Shown here in pieces: positions 29,208 through 48,791 of a DNA stretch of 64,000 bases. The position numbers and the translations under genes are program-made. The stretch covers positions 1 through 64,000 of the forward strand of contig CANRMD010000003.1 in assembly GCA_947631645.1 (NCBI GenBank), written 5' to 3'. Every line of letters begins with the position of its first letter. The first letter of the stretch is position 1. This DNA comes from Candidatus Gastranaerophilales bacterium. GTDB lineage: Bacteria > Cyanobacteriota > Vampirovibrionia > Gastranaerophilales > Gastranaerophilaceae. The notes beneath the pieces are model-generated. The model ran no database searches. It worked only from the letters and a program-made list of their open reading frames with translations, and was not told the DNA's origin.

Positions 29208-30065
29208 CTATTTCAGCTCTAGTGAAAATAATTTGTTATTATACTTAATACATTGTGAACAAAAAGGGGTTTCGAGGTAACTTTGAGTTGAATAATCATT
29301 AAAATCAGAACCGCATTTACCCCTGTTATCTGATGATAACAAAGGACAAGTAAATACACCGTTAATTGTCAGTGTTCTGCTTTTTGAACATTCAACATTT
29401 AATTTATTAAAATTCTGTTCGGGGTCAATTTCAATCATATTATCTTTATTTAATAAAGGTATAATTTTAAAATTAATATCCGTTGTTTCAAAATTAATGG
29501 AATTACACAGTTCTTTAAATGAATTTGTTAATTGTTTTTCGGGAAGATTCATATAATTAACTATAGATAATATAGGATTAAAATCATATTTAATAAGGCT
29601 TTGAATGGCGTGAACAGCCTTTCTGTATGAACCTCTGCCCCTAAGTAAATCATTTTCTTTTTCATCCCAATTATCTATACTTATCATAAATATTATCTCA
29701 TTTCCGAGATTATTCTCTTCTTCTACTTTTCTTAAAAAACGTGCCTTTTTATCATTAATATTAAGAGCATTTGTATGAATGACAACAGAAGAATATTTTA
29801 AGCATAATCTTAAAATATGATTAAAATCAGGATGAAGCATAGGTTCCGCACCGGTTAAATGTATATATTGCAAATCTTTTTTATCTATTGCTAACAAAGA
29901 TTGTTTAACTTTTTCTATGGGTATAAAATCTTTAACCTTTTTATCTTTAAATTCAATATAACAATGTTTACATTTTAAATTGCAATTTTGGTTAGTCATC
30001 TCAATAAATAAAGATTCTAATTTTGACATATTAATACATGGTGCTTTAATAATTGTTTTACTCAT
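29208..30065 (-). CDS. Radical SAM protein with short C-terminal Cys cluster
   Basis: A 285-aa enzyme with the radical SAM motif CNLKCKHC at residues 28-35 and HLTGAEPMLHPDF as the GGEP-like SAM contact. Five Cys near the C-terminus (pattern C...C...C, then CSQC) form a shortened SPASM or twitch-type site. The ATG at 30065, with GAGGA eight bases upstream, is preferred to a start 14 codons earlier. The substrate is unknown. It is divergent from a 56-residue protein (30229), a possible partner. Confidence 0.85.
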   Translation of the reverse strand: MSKTIIKAPCINMSKLESLFIEMTNQNCNLKCKHCYIEFKDKKVKDFIPIEKVKQSLLAIDKKDLQYIHLTGAEPMLHPDFNHILRLCLKYSSVVIHTNALNINDKKARFLRKVEEENNLGNEIIFMISIDNWDEKENDLLRGRGSYRKAVHAIQSLIKYDFNPILSIVNYMNLPEKQLTNSFKELCNSINFETTDINFKIIPLLNKDNMIEIDPEQNFNKLNVECSKSRTLTINGVFTCPLLSSDNRGKCGSDFNDYSTQSYLETPFCSQCIKYNNKLFSLELK

Positions 30066-30228
30066 AAATAAATCCTCATATAAATTCTTATGATTATGAT
30101 TTATCATTTATGTTTTAAGTAATAAATTAGACAGTTGTATAAAATAAGAACACAAATTACTAATATACAAGGAGTATATTTATAAAGATTTTTAAATTTC
30201 TTCCGAAAGAAAAATAAGGAGGGAAATT

Positions 30229-38202: not shown

Positions 38203-39189
38203 ATGATTTACAAAAACATTTTACTTATAAACTTTGGAGGAATAGGCGATGAAATACTTTTTCTGCCCGTTATACAAAGTTTAAGAAAAACATTTCCCAA
38301 TGCAAAAATTACATTATGTTTAGAGGGAAGAAGTAAAAGTTTTATTAATCTTACTAATTTAATAAATGAACATTTCTGCATTGATATTAAAACAAAAAAT
38401 AAATACATAGAGATGTTAAAATTATATTTTAAGGCTTTAACGGGAAGATATGACTTGGTTATTTCATCGGGAGCCAATCCTTTAATATCATTATTACTGT
38501 ATTTTACGGGCATTAAAACAAAAATCGGATATAAAACATCAAAATTAAGTTTAAAACTTTTAACTCATGCTGTTGAATTAAATCAAAACCAATATGCAGC
38601 AAAAATGTATTTTGATTTAGTAAAACCAATAACACACACAGAATTTGAACTGCCAAAAATAGATACGGAAGAATATAACAGAGAAGATAACACCGTTATA
38701 CTTCACCCCGGTGTTAGTAAAATAAGTGTTTCAAAAGGCATTATTAAAATTTTTAACGCCAAAGTTTGGGCAGAACTAATCAAAAAACTTTTATTAAAAG
38801 ATAAAAAAGTTATTCTTTGCGGGGGACCTGATGATGAAGATGTCATTAATGAAATCAGAGCCGAACTAAAGAACACAGATTTAAGTAATTTTATGGATAT
38901 GTACGGCAAAACAAAAAATATGCTTGATTTTGCAAAACTTGTAAAAAAATCGGAAGTTCTTATATGTTCTGACTCAGCACCAATGCATATAGGTATAGCA
39001 ACAGACACCAAAACAATTGCTATATTCGGCCCAACTGATGAAAAAAAGCTTTTACCCGAGTCTGAAAAATTTATAGCAATAACAAACGCTGCAGATTGCA
39101 GACCTTGTCTGTGGGACAAACGTCAAACAACCTGCAAAGAACTTTATTGTTTAAACATTAATACAGAACAAATTATTTCTCTGTTTTAA
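38203..39189 (+). CDS. Glycosyltransferase family 9 (LPS heptosyltransferase type)
   Basis: This 328-aa GT-B enzyme begins ILLINFGGIGDEILFLPVIQSL, the family-9 donor-loop signature, and has CSDSAPMHIGIATDTKTIAIFGPTD in the C-terminal domain. Members add heptose or related sugars to the LPS inner core, consistent with the LptF/G and BamA genes here. The sugar itself cannot be inferred. Its 3' end overlaps the convergent KMVYGIC peptide gene by 17 bases. Confidence 0.9.
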   Translation: MIYKNILLINFGGIGDEILFLPVIQSLRKTFPNAKITLCLEGRSKSFINLTNLINEHFCIDIKTKNKYIEMLKLYFKALTGRYDLVISSGANPLISLLLYFTGIKTKIGYKTSKLSLKLLTHAVELNQNQYAAKMYFDLVKPITHTEFELPKIDTEEYNREDNTVILHPGVSKISVSKGIIKIFNAKVWAELIKKLLLKDKKVILCGGPDDEDVINEIRAELKNTDLSNFMDMYGKTKNMLDFAKLVKKSEVLICSDSAPMHIGIATDTKTIAIFGPTDEKKLLPESEKFIAITNAADCRPCLWDKRQTTCKELYCLNINTEQIISLF

Positions 39190-39412
39190 ATAGGTTATGA
39201 ATGAAATTACCGATTTTTTGGAAGAAAGAAAATTTTTCCGGTATATTGCTGCTTATATCGACAGAATCATCGTCAGGAGTACATATACCATAAACCATCT
39301 TTGGTTCTATAAAATTTATACTTGGTTCTTCGGAAGGTCTGCAAATGCCGTATACCATCTTAGCACCCGGATTAAATTGATTAAAACCGTTGTTTCCGCT
39401 AATATTACTCAT
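39173..39412 (-). CDS. KMVYGIC-repeat peptide, candidate radical SAM substrate
   Basis: This 79-aa protein carries two copies of a 20-residue repeat centred on KMVYGIC(R/T)P (residues 18-26 and 38-46), one Cys per copy, and a C-terminal amphipathic segment (FSFFQKIGNFIHNLF, about 61-75). It starts after an AAAGGA ribosome-binding site and is divergent, 121 bases away, from a full SPASM radical SAM gene. Repeats with an invariant Tyr-Gly and Cys are typical of peptides modified by such enzymes. That pairing is an inference. Confidence 0.75.
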   Translation of the reverse strand: MSNISGNNGFNQFNPGAKMVYGICRPSEEPSINFIEPKMVYGICTPDDDSVDISSNIPEKFSFFQKIGNFIHNLFKTEK

Positions 39413-39533
39413 TAGATATCCTTTCTGTTTTATACCATTATAAAAATATATTTCGAAATAATTTTTTTAATTCTTTAATATTTTTGCATAAATTTTAATA
39501 AAATTTTACAATAAAATAAAAGGAGATATTAAT

Positions 39534-40652
39534 ATGATATATAAACCAAAAACAGCAGTATGGGAAATAACATTCAAGTGTAATGTAAATTGTATTCATT
39601 GCGGTTCGGATTGTACAAGTGTTGAAAAAGAACACCAATTAACTACCGCCGAATGTTTTAAAGTAATAAGTGATTTAGCCGAATTGGGTTGCGAAACCGT
39701 TATTTTGTCCGGAGGTGAACCTCTGATGAGGCAAGATATCGGTGCTATTGCAGGAATGATTAGGACTTGCGGAATGAAAGTCGGCTTTATTTCTAACGGT
39801 TATATGCTTAATGAAAATACAATTAAAATAATAGATGCCGTAAGACCAATTGCATTTGGCATTAGTATTGATGCTGCCGACAGTTATTTACACGATTATA
39901 TTCGAGGTAAAGATGGTGTTTTTGCACATGTTGAAAATGCAATAAAATTGCTTCATCAACATAACATAGTTCCAAGTATTGTAACAACAATACATAAATT
40001 AAATTACACCCAGCTACCAAAAATTAGAGATTTTTTAATTAAGAATAAAATAAGATACTGGCAAATTCAATATGGTGACCATATAGGGCGTATGTCAAAA
40101 GATACTATGATTACAGAAGCTCAATTTTTTGAAATTGCCAAATTTATATTGGAAACACGTAAAAAATATGCGGATAAATTTGATGAAGTATCAGGAGCTG
40201 ATGTTTTTGGATATTTAGGGAATATCGGAACCCAAGTTCAGGGGCCTTGGCTCGGATGTCATGCCGGAATTAATGCAATAGGTTTAGGAAGCGACGGAAC
40301 TGTCAGAGGCTGTTTATCACTACAACTCGACCAATACAAAGAAGCAAATGTCAGAGAACGTTCATTAAAAGAGATTTGGAATGATGAAAATTTATTTTCT
40401 TATAATCGCAAATTTGATTGCTCAATGCTTACAGGTTATTGTAAAACTTGCTTATATGCATCTGTATGCAAAGGCGGATGTTTAAGAGCTGCAACGGTTG
40501 AAGGCGGAAGATGTAACCCTTATTGTTTATATAAATTTGAAAAAGAAGGCTTTAGCAGTGAAGAACAATCAAAAACAAACTTTAAAAAAGAAGAAATATT
40601 TAAAATATATAATCCTATAAGACCTTTACCTAAAGAATTTATGGGAAAATAA
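39534..40652 (+). CDS. Radical SAM/SPASM protein, candidate peptide maturase
   Basis: This 372-aa enzyme has CNVNCIHC at residues 16-23 (the [4Fe-4S] SAM site), the GGEP motif at 60-63 and a complete C-terminal SPASM domain: GCHAG (242), RGC (260), then CKTC, C-x3-C and two further Cys (303, 306, 312, 316, 327, 331), enough for two auxiliary clusters. This class includes PqqE-type peptide-modifying enzymes. An AAGGAGATA ribosome-binding site is present. The divergent KMVYGIC peptide is its likely substrate. Confidence 0.9.
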   Translation: MIYKPKTAVWEITFKCNVNCIHCGSDCTSVEKEHQLTTAECFKVISDLAELGCETVILSGGEPLMRQDIGAIAGMIRTCGMKVGFISNGYMLNENTIKIIDAVRPIAFGISIDAADSYLHDYIRGKDGVFAHVENAIKLLHQHNIVPSIVTTIHKLNYTQLPKIRDFLIKNKIRYWQIQYGDHIGRMSKDTMITEAQFFEIAKFILETRKKYADKFDEVSGADVFGYLGNIGTQVQGPWLGCHAGINAIGLGSDGTVRGCLSLQLDQYKEANVRERSLKEIWNDENLFSYNRKFDCSMLTGYCKTCLYASVCKGGCLRAATVEGGRCNPYCLYKFEKEGFSSEEQSKTNFKKEEIFKIYNPIRPLPKEFMGK

Positions 40653-40713: not shown

Positions 40714-43200
40714 GTGCTGAAAGACAGATATTTTCCGCAAGAAATTGAAAAAAAGTGGCAAAAACACTGGGATGAAACAAAATTAAATAAAGTATATAAC
40801 GATAAAGATAAAGAAAAGTATTATATTTTATCAATGCTTCCGTATCCGTCAGGCAAACTTCACATGGGGCATGTAAGAAACTATACGATATCAGATGTAA
40901 TTGCACGATATAAGAGGATGAACGGATATAACGTACTTCACCCGATGGGGTGGGATAGTTTTGGACTTCCTGCCGAAAATGCCGCTATACAGCACGGTGC
41001 TAATCCTAAAAAATGGACTTTAGATAATATTGCTTATATGAAAAAGCAGTTAAAAGAATTAGGGTTAATGATAGATTGGGACAGAGAAGTTACTACATGT
41101 CTTCCCGAATACTACAAATGGACTCAATACTTCTTTATACAAATGTTTAAAAAAGGTTTGGCATACAAAAAAGAAGCCGCCGTTAACTGGTGTAATAACT
41201 GTGCAACAGTTCTAGCAAACGAACAAGTAATAGACGGCAAATGCTGGAGATGTGACGGACAAGTTGAAAAGAAATATTTATCTCAATGGTTCTTGAAAAT
41301 AACAGATTACGCACAAGAGCTTTTAGACGATATTGAAAAGTTAAAAGGCTGGCCTGACAGTGTAAAAACCATGCAAAAAAATTGGATAGACCGCTCAACA
41401 GGTGCTATTTTAAGATTTAAAGTTAAAGAAATTGAAGGGTTAGAGGTTCCCGTATACACAACAAGACCTGATACGGCATACGGTATTACTTACCTTGTTG
41501 TTGCTCCTGAATATAAAGATATTGAAAAATTAACAACTCCTGAAAACAAAGAAGCAGTTGAAGCATACAGACAAAACGCTCGAAGAATGACGGAAATTGA
41601 ACGTTTATCAACTGAAAGAATAAAAACAGGCGTACCTCTAGGTACTCACTTAATTAACCCGTTAAACGGTGAAGAATTCCCTATATGGACTGCAGATTAT
41701 GCTTTGGCGGAATACGGAACGGGTGCTGTTATGGCAGTTCCTGCTCATGATGAACGTGACTTTGCCTTTGCTAAAAAATATAATCTGCCTGTAAAAATAG
41801 TTATTCAAAATCCTGATAATCCTATGACTGAATTAAATGAAGCATATACGGATAAAGGTATACTTGTAAATTCACTTGATTGCAACGGACTTGATAATGA
41901 AAAAGCCAAACAGGTAATTATAGATAAAGCGGTAAAAGGCGGTTTCGGTGAAGCGAAAGTTCAATTCAGGCTCCGCGACTGGCTTATCTCAAGACAAAGA
42001 TATTGGGGAACTCCTATACCTATTGTATATTGTCCTAAATGCGGTACTGTACCCGTTGATGAAAAAGACTTGCCGGTACTTTTACCCGAAGATGTCGATT
42101 TTAGCGTAAAAGGTATGTCGCCCGTTAAAACCTCAGAAAGTTTTAAATACACAACTTGTCCTATTTGCGGAGGCAAAGCAGAGCGTGAAACCGATACAAT
42201 GGACACATTTATGTGTTCTAACTGGTATTTTTATCGATACACTGATGCAAGAAACCAAGATGCTCCGTTTGATAAAGATATACTTCACTACTGGGCACCT
42301 ATTGACCAGTATGTAGGCGGTATTGAACATGCCATTTTACACTTATTATATTCAAGATTTTTCACTAAAGCTTTAAGAGATTTAGGAATAATCAATATAG
42401 ATGAACCGTTCAAAAACCTGTTAACTCAAGGTATGGTATTAAAAGACGGATCAAAAATGTCAAAATCAAAAGGTAATACGGTAGACCCTGATGAAATATT
42501 CGCTAATTACGGAGCTGATACGGCCAGATTATTTATTTTATCAGATTCTCCGCCGAACAGAGATTTTGATTGGTCTGATGCAGGTGTTGAAGGCTGCTAT
42601 AAATTCCTAAACAGATTATGGAGATTATATGCTGATAATCAAAATAATATTGATTTAAACTATAATCTGCCTGACGTGAAATCATTATCTAAAGCAAATG
42701 ACGATTTAGTTCGTGAAGTTCATATGACAATTAAAAAAGTATCACAAGATATTGCAAATGAATTTCAATTTAACACGGTAATATCTAAATACAGAGAATT
42801 TACAAATGTATTATATGATTACCTTGCGGCTAAACAAGAATTAAATAATGAAGATAAGCAAGTTTTAAGCTATGCACTTATAACTTTCTTAAAGATGTTT
42901 GCTCCTGTTCTTCCTCATATGTCGGAAGAAATATATGAAGGCTTGGGAGGAAAGGACTCTGTCCATAAACTTGATTGGCCAAAATATGATGAAAATCTTG
43001 CTAAAACTTCTACAATAACACTTGTAGCTCAAATTAACGGCAAAGTTAAAGACAGGATTGAAGTTGATGCGGAACTTTCTAAAGAAGAACTTGAAAAAGC
43101 CGCCCTCAACAGCCAAAGAATAAAAGAGCTTACCCAAGGAAAACAAATAGTAAAAGTTATTGTGGTTCCGGGAAAACTGGTAAATATTGTTGTAAAATAA
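40714..43200 (+). CDS. leuS: Leucyl-tRNA synthetase
   Basis: This 828-aa class I synthetase has the HIGH-equivalent PYPSGKLHMGHVRNY near residue 43, the editing (CP1) domain, a zinc-finger-like CPKCG...CPICGG insertion (about 435-487), and KMSKSKGNTV near 578. The start is GTG (GTGCTGAAAGAC) after TAGGAG; no ATG fits better. The length is normal for bacteria. A radical SAM gene follows ten bases later and is probably co-transcribed. Confidence 0.97.
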   Translation: MLKDRYFPQEIEKKWQKHWDETKLNKVYNDKDKEKYYILSMLPYPSGKLHMGHVRNYTISDVIARYKRMNGYNVLHPMGWDSFGLPAENAAIQHGANPKKWTLDNIAYMKKQLKELGLMIDWDREVTTCLPEYYKWTQYFFIQMFKKGLAYKKEAAVNWCNNCATVLANEQVIDGKCWRCDGQVEKKYLSQWFLKITDYAQELLDDIEKLKGWPDSVKTMQKNWIDRSTGAILRFKVKEIEGLEVPVYTTRPDTAYGITYLVVAPEYKDIEKLTTPENKEAVEAYRQNARRMTEIERLSTERIKTGVPLGTHLINPLNGEEFPIWTADYALAEYGTGAVMAVPAHDERDFAFAKKYNLPVKIVIQNPDNPMTELNEAYTDKGILVNSLDCNGLDNEKAKQVIIDKAVKGGFGEAKVQFRLRDWLISRQRYWGTPIPIVYCPKCGTVPVDEKDLPVLLPEDVDFSVKGMSPVKTSESFKYTTCPICGGKAERETDTMDTFMCSNWYFYRYTDARNQDAPFDKDILHYWAPIDQYVGGIEHAILHLLYSRFFTKALRDLGIINIDEPFKNLLTQGMVLKDGSKMSKSKGNTVDPDEIFANYGADTARLFILSDSPPNRDFDWSDAGVEGCYKFLNRLWRLYADNQNNIDLNYNLPDVKSLSKANDDLVREVHMTIKKVSQDIANEFQFNTVISKYREFTNVLYDYLAAKQELNNEDKQVLSYALITFLKMFAPVLPHMSEEIYEGLGGKDSVHKLDWPKYDENLAKTSTITLVAQINGKVKDRIEVDAELSKEELEKAALNSQRIKELTQGKQIVKVIVVPGKLVNIVVK

Positions 43201-43210
43201 GGAAAATACA

Positions 43211-44236
43211 GTGAAATATTTATTCTGCCAGCAAATAGACAGGCACCTATGTTTTAATAAAAATAATCTATACAGTTGTACGGTAGGTAATAATACCAAA
43301 GGGCAATCACTGCCTATAATAAAAGAAAATTATACGGGTGAACTAATTGATTGGATTGAATTTTTTAAAGAACGTGAACAAATAAAACAAAACTTTAAAA
43401 ACGGTAACCCTACCGAAAACTGCAAAGGGTGCTATTTCTTACACGAAGCTGAGTGGGATAAAATTAATGAAACATGGGAATTCAAATCAATTCAGTTTTC
43501 ACACTGGTTAATGTGTAATTCTAAATGTATTTATTGTTCTAATCATACGGCTTATGATAAATCTATAAAAACAGACACATATGACAGCGTTCCGGTTTTA
43601 GCTGATTTAATTAAAAGAAATTATGTAAATGAACATACAAAAGTTGAATTTGCCGGAGGAGAACCAACTTTATATTATCATTTCAGTGAATTAATGGATT
43701 TAATTTTAAATTCAAAAGTAAAAGAAACCATTGTATATTCAAACGCAATTAAATATAACAAAAAAATAGAAGAAGGCATAAAAAAAGGAACTGTAAGCCT
43801 TTGTGTATCGATAGATGCGGGTTCAAAAAAAATTCACGAAAAAATCAAAGGTGTTAAATCTTTTGACAGAGTATGGAAAAATATAGAAAAATACTCTAAA
43901 GTTAAAAGTCCGATAACAAAAAACTACATAGCTTTAAAATATATTATCGTACCAAACGTTAATGACAGCGAAGAAGAAATTGAAAAATGGATTCAAAAAA
44001 GCATTAAAGCCGGCGTAAATATGCTTATTTTAAATGCAGATAATAACGTATTTATTAATGAATGTTCAAAAGAAGATAAAGTTTATAAATTAAGAACAAT
44101 AATTTTGTTGAGCGAATATTTTTTAAGGAGAATGAAAGCTTTAAATATAAGAGCAAAATTTGAATTTAATGTAGAAGCTGCATACAAAGAATTAAATTAT
44201 CCTATACCGTCATTTGAAAATTTCTTTTATATGTAA
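43211..44236 (+). CDS. Radical SAM protein with N-terminal four-Cys motif, copy 1
   Basis: This 341-aa protein has the SAM-site CNSKCIYC at residues 102-109 and AGGEPT near 148. Ahead of it lies a four-Cys set, C6, C23, C71 and C74 (CKGCYFL), in the arrangement of a SPASM/twitch cluster but at the N-terminus. The paralogue at 45425 keeps the same spacing. The GTG start (GTGAAATATTTA) follows leuS by ten bases. The C-terminal third is a TIM-barrel remnant without Cys. The substrate is unknown. Confidence 0.87.
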   Translation: MKYLFCQQIDRHLCFNKNNLYSCTVGNNTKGQSLPIIKENYTGELIDWIEFFKEREQIKQNFKNGNPTENCKGCYFLHEAEWDKINETWEFKSIQFSHWLMCNSKCIYCSNHTAYDKSIKTDTYDSVPVLADLIKRNYVNEHTKVEFAGGEPTLYYHFSELMDLILNSKVKETIVYSNAIKYNKKIEEGIKKGTVSLCVSIDAGSKKIHEKIKGVKSFDRVWKNIEKYSKVKSPITKNYIALKYIIVPNVNDSEEEIEKWIQKSIKAGVNMLILNADNNVFINECSKEDKVYKLRTIILLSEYFLRRMKALNIRAKFEFNVEAAYKELNYPIPSFENFFYM

Positions 44237-45424: not shown

Positions 45425-46399
45425 CTATTTATTTAAACTTTGAGCGAGAATATAACCTCTGTCAATAAGTTCAACTTGAAGATTTTTTTCTTTAATTTTA
45501 TCTAAAGTATACGAAATTAATTCAAAAACATAAGGCGGAATATTGTCTTTATTTTCGTTATACCACATCATTTCAACATCAAAAGCAACATATTTAACTC
45601 CCGCCTCAACCGATTTATCAAGCCAAGAATCAATTTCTTCTTTTGATGAATTAACATCAGGAATTAATATAAACTTTGTTTTTACTCTGTCTGCTTGAGG
45701 CTGAACAGACGCATATTTTTTAATATTTTCCCAAACTTGATTATAAAAATCATATCTTTTAACTTTAATAAATGTATCTTGTGTGCCGGAATCAACCGAA
45801 ACAACAATATTCACTTTTCCTAAACGTATCCCATCTTCAACAATTTTGCTGAATTTTGTAGCATTTGTTAAAACTCTGATTGAAGATAAATCATAATCAA
45901 TAAACAACTTAATTAAGTCATCAAATTCTGGAGCAACAGAGGGCTCACCGCCGGCTATTGTAATATGCCCGCCTTTTCTTAAATATCCCTTTTCTGCCAT
46001 ATCTTTTATCGCCGGATAAACATTATATTGCGTTTGATGAGGTTTATCTTTGTCATTTAACCAGCAATATACACAGTGTTCGTTGCATATTGTCCAATTA
46101 TTGAAATTTATAAAAGATATATAATCTTCATCATCCCACTCTTTTTCCTCAAGATAATGGCATCCTCTGCATTCGGGGATAATATCTCCTTTTTTCATCT
46201 GATTTCTGTATCCCCTTTTTATTTTGAAAAAATTTTTCCAATCAATAAGTTCACCGTAATAATTTTCTATAATTTTTTTATAACCTTTATCAGTAGGCGG
46301 AATACGACAGCAAAAATTTATGCTGTCCGTAAAAAAATCTAAACCGTGCTCAATTAAATCACAACTGACATATTTCTTTTTTTTATTGAAAAATTTCAT
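45425..46399 (-). CDS. Radical SAM protein with N-terminal four-Cys motif, copy 2
   Basis: This 324-aa paralogue of the 43211 protein has CNEHCVYC at residues 105-112 and AGGEPS near 150. The N-terminal set is C13, C30 (C31), C77 and C80 (CRGCHYL), with the same 16-residue first spacing as copy 1, and both share ENY.GELIDW..FFK. The ATG at 46399 is preferred to one six codons upstream. It overlaps the recJ 3' end by 17 bases, as the last gene of the fixC operon. Confidence 0.87.
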   Translation of the reverse strand: MKFFNKKKKYVSCDLIEHGLDFFTDSINFCCRIPPTDKGYKKIIENYYGELIDWKNFFKIKRGYRNQMKKGDIIPECRGCHYLEEKEWDDEDYISFINFNNWTICNEHCVYCWLNDKDKPHQTQYNVYPAIKDMAEKGYLRKGGHITIAGGEPSVAPEFDDLIKLFIDYDLSSIRVLTNATKFSKIVEDGIRLGKVNIVVSVDSGTQDTFIKVKRYDFYNQVWENIKKYASVQPQADRVKTKFILIPDVNSSKEEIDSWLDKSVEAGVKYVAFDVEMMWYNENKDNIPPYVFELISYTLDKIKEKNLQVELIDRGYILAQSLNK

Positions 46400-48791
46400 A
46401 ATTTTTATCCATATCATTTTTAATACTTTCTGTTGAAGAATTTAAATAATACTTTTTAAAATTATTAATTGTATTAATTCTTTCAGTAAAAGTTAAATAC
46501 ATATCATCTTGTTTAACTTTAGAAAACTCAACAGGGGTAAAATTTAATATTTTAAAGTTCAATTCATTAATTCTGTCACATTCAATCATATTAACATTTT
46601 CAAAGATTGATAAAGCACAATCAATACTTTCACTGTCTACACCAATTGCATGCGAAACTCTGGTTATATCAAACTCACCGTTCAAATGTGATATTGAATA
46701 TTTTATCATCCCTGACAATTTAGATATAATATCATCGGCATTTAATTCATTTATTTCAAAATTCATAAGATGAACTATTTTTGCATCTGTATTTTTAATT
46801 ATTTTATAAAATTCTTCAATATTACACGGGCAATCAAAAAACATTAACTGTTCTTTATCTACAGGTATATTATCAGTTGAAAATACCAAATTATTTATAT
46901 TTAAAGGAAGATTTAATTTATTTTTTAAACCCGAATTTTCTAAAAAGATTGCTGTTGTTTTTTTTGTAGTATTAATAAAATCTAAAACTTGCATTAATAT
47001 ATTTTTTTTGCGTCTGTGATCCAAAATTTTTAATTCCGACTGCACTTTAAAATTATCAGAATGTATATCATTAAGCATTAATTGCAAATTAATTTTATCA
47101 TTAAACTTATTAATATTAAGAGAAAAAAGAATATCAAGTTTTGAATTAACAGGCAGATTAAAGTCAGGAGTATTCCATTTTACACATTCAAAAGAGCAAG
47201 AATTTTTTGAAACAAACATTTTCAAATGGTTGTTATTCTGTCCCATCATTCTGAAATTATCAAGTAATAAATCATTTGCAACAAATAAAGGAGGAGGATT
47301 TCCTGCTCCAAATGGTTCTAACTTTTCAACAATGTTAAAAGTATCAATATTAATTTCATCAGCCTCCAAAATCATATCAGCCTGAACTGAAACAGACGAA
47401 AAATCAATATCTTGAGCATATTGTTTTATAGAGTCAGAAATTAAATTTTTTAATTTATCAAATGAAATTTTATCAGAATCAAACGCAAAGCCCGCCGCCA
47501 TTTTATGACCGCCAAAGCCTTCAAATAAATCTTTGTGTTCACTTAACAAATTATGAATATTTAACCCCTGAACACTTCTTGCAGAACATCTGATAATATT
47601 TGGATTATTAATATCTGCCGTCATCAAAAATACAGGTTTATTATAAGTTTCTGCTAATTTTGATGCAACAATACCGATAATTCCCAAATGCCAATCTTTA
47701 TTGAAAAGAATTATAGCGTTTTTATTCTGTGATTTTGAAGCTTCATACATACTTCTTGCAGATTTAAAAATTTCATCACATAAATTTTGTCTGAGTGAAT
47801 TTAAATCATTTAAAAGTTTAACCGAATTTTCAATTAATTCATCATCATCGGATATAAGAAGATTTATTGCCACACAAGGGGAGTCAAGCCGTCCTGAGGC
47901 ATTTATTCTTGGTACTACGGTAAAGGCAATTGTATCCGAGTTAATTGTATTAAAATCATTAATTCCCGACGAAATAAGTAATTTTTGAATTCCTTTATGC
48001 CGTCCGCTTTTAATAAGTTCTAAACCCATTGCAACAATACTGCGGTTTTCTCCGATTAATTCAACCACATCACCTATTGTGCCAATCGCTGCGAGCACTA
48101 ACAAATCATGTACATAATCTTCACAATTATACATTTGAAGTAATTTACAAGCCAATTTAAATGCGACCCCGACGCCCGAAAGATAACTTAAACTTTCAAT
48201 TTCTTCAATTGTAAGATTAGAATCAATATTCCCTTGAGCTTTAGGATTTAATACGGCAAATGCATCAGGCAAAATTTCGGGAGCTTCATGGTGATCAGTA
48301 ATAATTACATCTGTTTTAAAGCCTTTTGCAAACGCGACTTCCTGAACATTTGATATTCCGCAATCAACAGTAATAATCAATTTTGATTTTTGTTTTGATA
48401 TAATTTTAACCAATGCTTTTGTATTCAGTCCGTGGCTTTCTACCGCTCTATCCGGCAAATAGAAATCAACATCTGCTCCTATTTTTTTTAAAGTCAAATA
48501 TAATAAAGCAGTCGATGTAACACCATCCGCATCAAAATCACCATATACCGTAATATGTTCTTTATTTTCAATTGCCCTTTTAATTCTGTCTGCCGTTTTT
48601 TGCATATAAATAAAAACATCGGGACTAATAAATTTAGCTTTTAAAGGATTCAAAAAATCATTTATTTTTTTATCCGAATCAATTCCTCTGTTTTTTAACA
48701 ATACGGCAAGCACCCTGTTTCCATCACAAGCTTTAAGTAATTTTTCATCAAGCGTATTTTCTTTTATTTTCCAATTTTTTTTTACAGACAT
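46383..48791 (-). CDS. recJ: Single-stranded-DNA exonuclease RecJ
   Basis: This 802-aa protein has the DHH-family blocks: FDADGVTS (about residue 82), VDCGIS, the DHH motif in ITDHHEAPE and the DHHA1 domain with GGHKMAAGFAF (about 444). The C-terminal 230 residues (about 570-802) are longer than in E. coli RecJ but comparable to the long form seen in other phyla. It works in recombination and repair by 5'-3' degradation. It is operon-linked with the preceding 132-aa gene and the following radical SAM gene. Confidence 0.95.
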   Translation of the reverse strand: MSVKKNWKIKENTLDEKLLKACDGNRVLAVLLKNRGIDSDKKINDFLNPLKAKFISPDVFIYMQKTADRIKRAIENKEHITVYGDFDADGVTSTALLYLTLKKIGADVDFYLPDRAVESHGLNTKALVKIISKQKSKLIITVDCGISNVQEVAFAKGFKTDVIITDHHEAPEILPDAFAVLNPKAQGNIDSNLTIEEIESLSYLSGVGVAFKLACKLLQMYNCEDYVHDLLVLAAIGTIGDVVELIGENRSIVAMGLELIKSGRHKGIQKLLISSGINDFNTINSDTIAFTVVPRINASGRLDSPCVAINLLISDDDELIENSVKLLNDLNSLRQNLCDEIFKSARSMYEASKSQNKNAIILFNKDWHLGIIGIVASKLAETYNKPVFLMTADINNPNIIRCSARSVQGLNIHNLLSEHKDLFEGFGGHKMAAGFAFDSDKISFDKLKNLISDSIKQYAQDIDFSSVSVQADMILEADEINIDTFNIVEKLEPFGAGNPPPLFVANDLLLDNFRMMGQNNNHLKMFVSKNSCSFECVKWNTPDFNLPVNSKLDILFSLNINKFNDKINLQLMLNDIHSDNFKVQSELKILDHRRKKNILMQVLDFINTTKKTTAIFLENSGLKNKLNLPLNINNLVFSTDNIPVDKEQLMFFDCPCNIEEFYKIIKNTDAKIVHLMNFEINELNADDIISKLSGMIKYSISHLNGEFDITRVSHAIGVDSESIDCALSIFENVNMIECDRINELNFKILNFTPVEFSKVKQDDMYLTFTERINTINNFKKYYLNSSTESIKNDMDKNYEIFQ

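Follow-up and report, generated by a model that had tools for sequence, protein, structure and literature searches.

A predicted radical SAM splicease and a divergently encoded Val-Tyr-Gly repeat protein in Gastranaerophilales

The window analyzed here, a stretch of 64,000 nucleotides from a 1.87 Mb, 94% complete genome, encodes a small protein with two Val-Tyr-Gly-Ile sites divergently from a radical SAM/SPASM enzyme (Table 1). This gene pair is conserved across genomes, the repeats of the small protein share an Xaa-Tyr-Gly core with their counterparts in other genomes, and the enzyme belongs to the same superclade as PlpX. Taken together, the analysis makes it likely that the two genes form a two-gene system in which a divergent splicease excises tyramine at both Val-Tyr-Gly sites. 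This reading is preferred because TIGR04103 is the best-matching NCBIfam family of the enzyme, because the tree places the enzyme in the TIGR04103-containing superclade, because several partner proteins in this superclade carry Xaa-Tyr-Gly (XYG) motifs, and because a Gly-Ser pair directly follows the CX3CX2C motif.

Table 1. Features of the gene pair and its immediate neighborhood (window coordinates)
Feature	Position	Strand	Basis
Radical SAM/SPASM enzyme, 372 aa, predicted splicease	39534..40652	+	Pfam PF04055 and PF13186; best NCBIfam TIGR04103; tree
Ribosome-binding site of the radical SAM gene, AGGAG	39521..39525	+	sequence
CX3CX2C (C16, C20, C23), SAM cluster-binding, then G24-S25	39579..39608	+	alignment
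SPASM cysteines, C242 to C331	40257..40526	+	alignment
C-terminal extension, residues 335-372	40536..40649	+	alignment
Precursor ORF (predicted substrate, 79 aa, two Val-Tyr-Gly-Ile sites)	39173..39412	-	ORF, orthologues, aligned YGI cores
Repeat 1, KMVYGIC, residues 18-24; predicted splice site V20-Y21-G22	39341..39361	-	sequence
Repeat 2, KMVYGIC, residues 38-44; predicted splice site V40-Y41-G42	39281..39301	-	sequence
Ribosome-binding site of the precursor gene, AAAGGA, 6 nt before ATG	39419..39424	-	sequence
Intergenic region between the divergent genes, 121 bp	39413..39533	.	sequence
Glycosyltransferase family 9 gene, neighbor	38203-39189		
leuS, neighbor	40714-43200		read from its own sequence

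The precursor ORF translates as MSNISGNNGFNQFNPGAKMVYGICRPSEEPSINFIEPKMVYGICTPDDDSVDISSNIPEKFSFFQKIGNFIHNLFKTEK and has a C-terminal helix-like stretch, KFSFFQKIGNFIHNLFKTEK. An earlier note on this DNA had described two KMVYGIC repeats with an exact period of 20 residues, and these are indeed present, followed by RP after the first and TP after the second; a repeated 7-mer appeared in none of 20,000 residue shuffles of the ORF. Across the genome, VYGIC in an open frame occurs only in this ORF; two further matches at the DNA level were dismissed given that they lie in no open frame of at least 30 residues. The dN/dS of the peptide against its orthologues at L031 and L032 in two other genomes (loci are designated by L numbers), both adjoined by an orthologous enzyme, is approximately 0.33-0.40, so the ORF is coding. 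The enzymes of these two loci are 88-90% identical to the window enzyme and the peptides only about 40% identical, the YGI cores being retained nonetheless; they are invariant in five aligned precursors. The 79-aa protein has no Pfam match and no meaningful NCBIfam match, and a Nif11/nitrile-hydratase leader is absent. Promoter-like matches in the 121-bp intergenic region were no commoner than in shuffles, and terminator-like matches did no better. The flanking genes are unremarkable, and no exporter or peptide-maturing protease was seen nearby. Three other radical SAM-like genes lie in the window: 43211-44236 (+) matches general radical SAM models only, and 29208-30107 (-) and 45425-46417 (-) were read from their Cys motifs alone.

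The coordinates, Pfam matches and aligned cysteines also bear out the description of the neighboring gene as a complete SPASM radical SAM gene. The Cys motifs of the encoded enzyme, CX3CX2C, CX12GX4C and CX2CX5CX3C plus a final Cys, show little or no variation across an alignment of 32 relatives, and Gly-Ser directly after CX3CX2C is found in nearly all XYG-associated enzymes and is missing from the outgroups. The top NCBIfam family is TIGR04103 (PlpX subclass), which we take to correspond to IPR026482, with 185.6 bits, short of the cut-off of 725 bits; TIGR04133 and TIGR03913 score nearly as well (176 and 171 bits, respectively), which counts against the splicease assignment. A search of PDB sequences with the enzyme retrieved only generic radical SAM relatives (SkfB, MoaA, PqqE and others), a scan of viral contigs gave no match, and an AlphaFold model built from 8 sequences has a mean pLDDT of 57.7, with values under 50 in the SPASM half. 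In the alignment, members of the window clade share a conserved C-terminal extension, which the Gastranaerophilales sister clades lack; that it takes over the role of PlpY is a guess. No PlpY homologue adjoins the enzyme, and none was detected in the genome or in 18 relatives with a 71-aa PlpY-like query from Nostoc, a weak test that a short divergent protein could escape.

In a tree of 71 rows, with long branches, the window clade (18 rows, support 100/100) falls into a superclade together with TIGR04103, the GDL/DUF1843 maturases (TIGR03913), TIGR04133 and clostridial enzymes; PqqE, MftC, NirJ, TIGR04053 and TIGR04347 fall outside it (support 90/88). The window enzyme is located beside the canonical TIGR04103 clade, not inside it. 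PlpX, a member of IPR026482, acts with PlpY to excise tyramine from Xaa-Tyr-Gly, leaving an alpha-keto amide (PMC11002830); the natural sites of PlpXY are MYG and LYG, and C8H9NO is removed (PMC10533398). The window system resembles PlpX/PlpY of Pleurocapsa sp. PCC 7319, which makes spliceotides, in combining a SPASM radical SAM enzyme containing CX3CX2C-Gly-Ser with a substrate that has repeated hydrophobic-Tyr-Gly-hydrophobic sites, and at canonical TIGR04103 loci of photosynthetic cyanobacteria the Nif11 precursors carry PLYGV and MYGV. It differs in that the enzyme is only about 30% identical to the canonical TIGR04103 members found here and scores far under the cut-off, in that PlpY and the Nif11/nitrile-hydratase leader are missing, and in the divergent arrangement of the genes. 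Because the enzyme fails the cut-off, lies outside the canonical clade and is accompanied by neither PlpY nor a Nif11 leader, we do not file it as a member of the PlpX family; it probably works like one. The earlier view that the motif matches no named class gives way, the Xaa-Tyr-Gly core and the kinship of the enzyme matching the tyramine-excising spliceases.

The association of the two genes extends well beyond the window. Relatives of the enzyme were gathered from genome contigs and from 28 of 239 genomes of the family, and the close set comprises 20 loci with enzymes at least 55% identical to the window enzyme. A protein with related motifs is encoded next to the enzyme in 17 of these, with XYG sites in 14 (one to seven copies per protein), Xaa-Tyr-Ala (XYA) only in two, both LysM proteins, and TKYMPP repeats in one; the remaining three have no recognizable precursor, and one of them ends near a contig edge. 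The gene order varies from divergent to a precursor upstream on the same strand. An ORF with two or more [VILMKR]YG[IVA] sites was present at 13 of 21 enzyme loci, whereas 29 random loci from the family yielded none (Fisher p = 5.7e-7, an approximate value, since two of the 21 loci either nearly duplicate others or belong to more distant members). The search for related repeats near SPASM genes that the earlier note had proposed reveals co-occurrence, and the outcome that it had named as refuting, a peptide widespread away from any radical SAM gene, did not occur: in 146 genomes of the family, the 79-aa protein found only itself, with no recognizable copy lacking the enzyme. The other matches from this search were rejected as chance (the best, with E of 3e-4, has its frame broken by TGA). 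The neighboring SPASM enzyme almost certainly has the 79-aa peptide as its substrate, as had been supposed, and the host is, as also supposed, a gut diderm, a member of Gastranaerophilales.

By analogy with PlpX, the enzyme would act on Val-Tyr-Gly at V20-Y21-G22 and V40-Y41-G42, where a 5'-deoxyadenosyl radical would start fragmentation of the Tyr backbone; most of each Tyr would be cut from the backbone and the ends would be rejoined. Substrate recognition would proceed without PlpY or a Nif11 leader. The expected change, put earlier at -2 Da per repeat, becomes a loss of about 135 Da per site, or about 270.14 Da for the full reaction, from a precursor with a computed mass of 8891.26 Da (monoisotopic, reduced, with Met1); our computed mass for C8H9NO is 135.068 Da vs 135.0757 printed in PMC10533398. 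The product might plausibly serve as an inhibitor or a reactive protein, such residues being reported to confer protease inhibition. The reaction, a rare one, is already known from other bacteria, and splicing is reported to be widespread: PMC10373908, citing Scott et al. 2022, presents it as occurring broadly among bacteria and yielding protease-inhibiting products. If the prediction is true, ribosomal beta-amino acids, as reactive ketoamides that reportedly inhibit proteases, would be made in uncultured gut bacteria; the compact system of two genes, perhaps independent of both PlpY and a leader, would be useful for site-specific protein labeling.

A comparison of 66 distinct sites defines what the motif conserves: V, K, L or M at position -1, then Tyr, conserved more strongly than any other core residue, then Gly (48 sites) or Ala (18 sites), mostly followed by Ile or Val (also A, Y or S), with Pro common at +3 and +5. 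That some members of the clade have XYA or KYMPP instead of XYG is counted against the splicease reading. Many SPASM enzymes make Tyr-type carbon-carbon or ether links, and the prominence of Tyr would also suit a cross-link of the cyclophane or triceptide type within Tyr-Gly-Ile or nearby, at -2 Da per site. Such a link is nevertheless rather unlikely, considering that the residue at +2, with which Tyr would naturally link in a three-residue cyclophane, varies, that the +1 Gly lacks a side chain, and that the kinship of the enzyme is with TIGR04103. Another, undescribed Tyr-Gly-directed reaction of the superclade, e.g., backbone cleavage or epimerization, appears improbable: the depth of the superclade, the position of the window clade outside the canonical group and the Tyr-less sister clade described below, which shows that chemistry or substrate can change, speak for it, but the XYG core of the PLYGV precursors on one side of the tree recurs in the VYGI precursors on the other.

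The earlier note had suggested thioether or Tyr/Gly cross-links and had pointed to the single Cys in each repeat. This feature holds for the window ORF, where the Cys directly follows YGI and the SPASM enzyme adjoins, and the KYGANxGC repeats of L110-L112 also contain one Cys each; thioethers of the sactipeptide or ranthipeptide type, in which each Cys is joined to a neighboring residue of its repeat at -2 Da per link, would fit these observations. As a part of the motif, however, the Cys does not stand: repeat 2 of L031 and L032, the nearest orthologues, reads YGIR, and most precursors of the clade have no Cys near the core despite closely related enzymes. Since the Cys varies while Xaa-Tyr-Gly is kept, a thioether is highly improbable, and the scores of the sactipeptide maturases StsB, AlbA and SkfB on the window enzyme (106, 68 and 63 bits, respectively), well under that of TIGR04103, argue in the same direction. 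That the genes are chance neighbors and the repeat protein remains unmodified is scarcely credible: they are divergent and form no operon, and three loci of the clade lack a recognizable precursor, but the pairing recurs in differing orientations and contexts, far above its frequency at random loci, and no stray copy of the peptide was recognized in the family.

Several other members of the superclade have partner proteins with XYG or XYA (DUF1843 peptides, two TIGR04133 lipoproteins and an Anaerobacterium ORF); the protein encoded next to the Agathobacter enzyme contains neither motif. To our knowledge, no chemistry has been demonstrated for TIGR04133 or TIGR03913. The GDL motif/DUF1843 maturases (TIGR03913) share the superclade with the window system, and their precursors have an XYG or XYA motif close to the N-terminus (LYAAGI, MYAASI, PYGAGI, PYGPAM), but they have one site per short DUF1843 peptide and group with canonical TIGR04103 in the tree. 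Two such peptides, L118:3159-3872 and L120:2293-2505, adjoin GDL-type maturases and show XYA or XYG in this N-terminal part; the motifs of the DUF1843 peptides suggest that Tyr-Ala could also be a substrate motif in the superclade. TIGR04133 enzymes likewise contain CX3CX2C-Gly-Ser, but they are on a very long branch, show 27-29% identity and have a lipoprotein as the partner. The putative lipoproteins L122:2078-2920 and L129:1041-1430, two examples only, contain CEYGSP or CYGMP near the N-terminus, and by these motifs TIGR04133 may act on Tyr-Gly too. In Anaerobacterium chartisolvens (L036), the enzyme is 35% identical and an upstream ORF contains six YG sites (e.g., VYGP, IYGS and KVYGT), but this system is clostridial, its repeats are short and Ser/Gly-rich, and the enzyme has a C-terminal extension of TPR-like appearance. 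A related radical SAM clade (L103, L104 and L105, 41-43% identical) has a conserved TPR neighbor and no obvious repeat precursor.

Three predicted substrates, L099:6812-8023, L109:4065-4976 and L141:5526-6614, begin with a LysM-like domain that is followed by XYA/XYG repeats, a domain architecture hinting that cell-wall-binding proteins could be modified.

Within the same bacterial family, a sister clade (L054-L064, L106-L108, L149, L151 and L152), with enzymes 33-39% identical to the window enzyme, is associated with adjacent proteins that repeat P-L-(A/G/S)-G-L-I-A-P-P (42 distinct sites in 13 loci). This repeat is the canonical PLYGV(I/V)xPP core with the Tyr replaced by Ala, Gly or Ser, and the 12 enzymes checked have Ile-Ile or Ile-Val at the position of Gly-Ser after CX3CX2C. 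As Tyr is absent from these sites, the reaction there cannot be tyramine excision; it may perhaps consist in excision of a small alkylamine or in another undescribed backbone reaction. We tentatively raise the possibility of a Gastranaerophilales family of backbone-editing radical SAM enzymes that would need neither PlpY nor a Nif11 leader to act on small free-standing proteins, LysM proteins and secreted proteins and would comprise a tyramine branch (XYG/XYA) and a sister branch editing Ala-Gly, Gly-Gly and Ser-Gly. The Tyr-less clade may be more novel than the main finding, and it provides a natural contrast for what sets the substrate choice of spliceases. An example is the precursor L108:5897-6232 with the enzyme L108:4883-5896.
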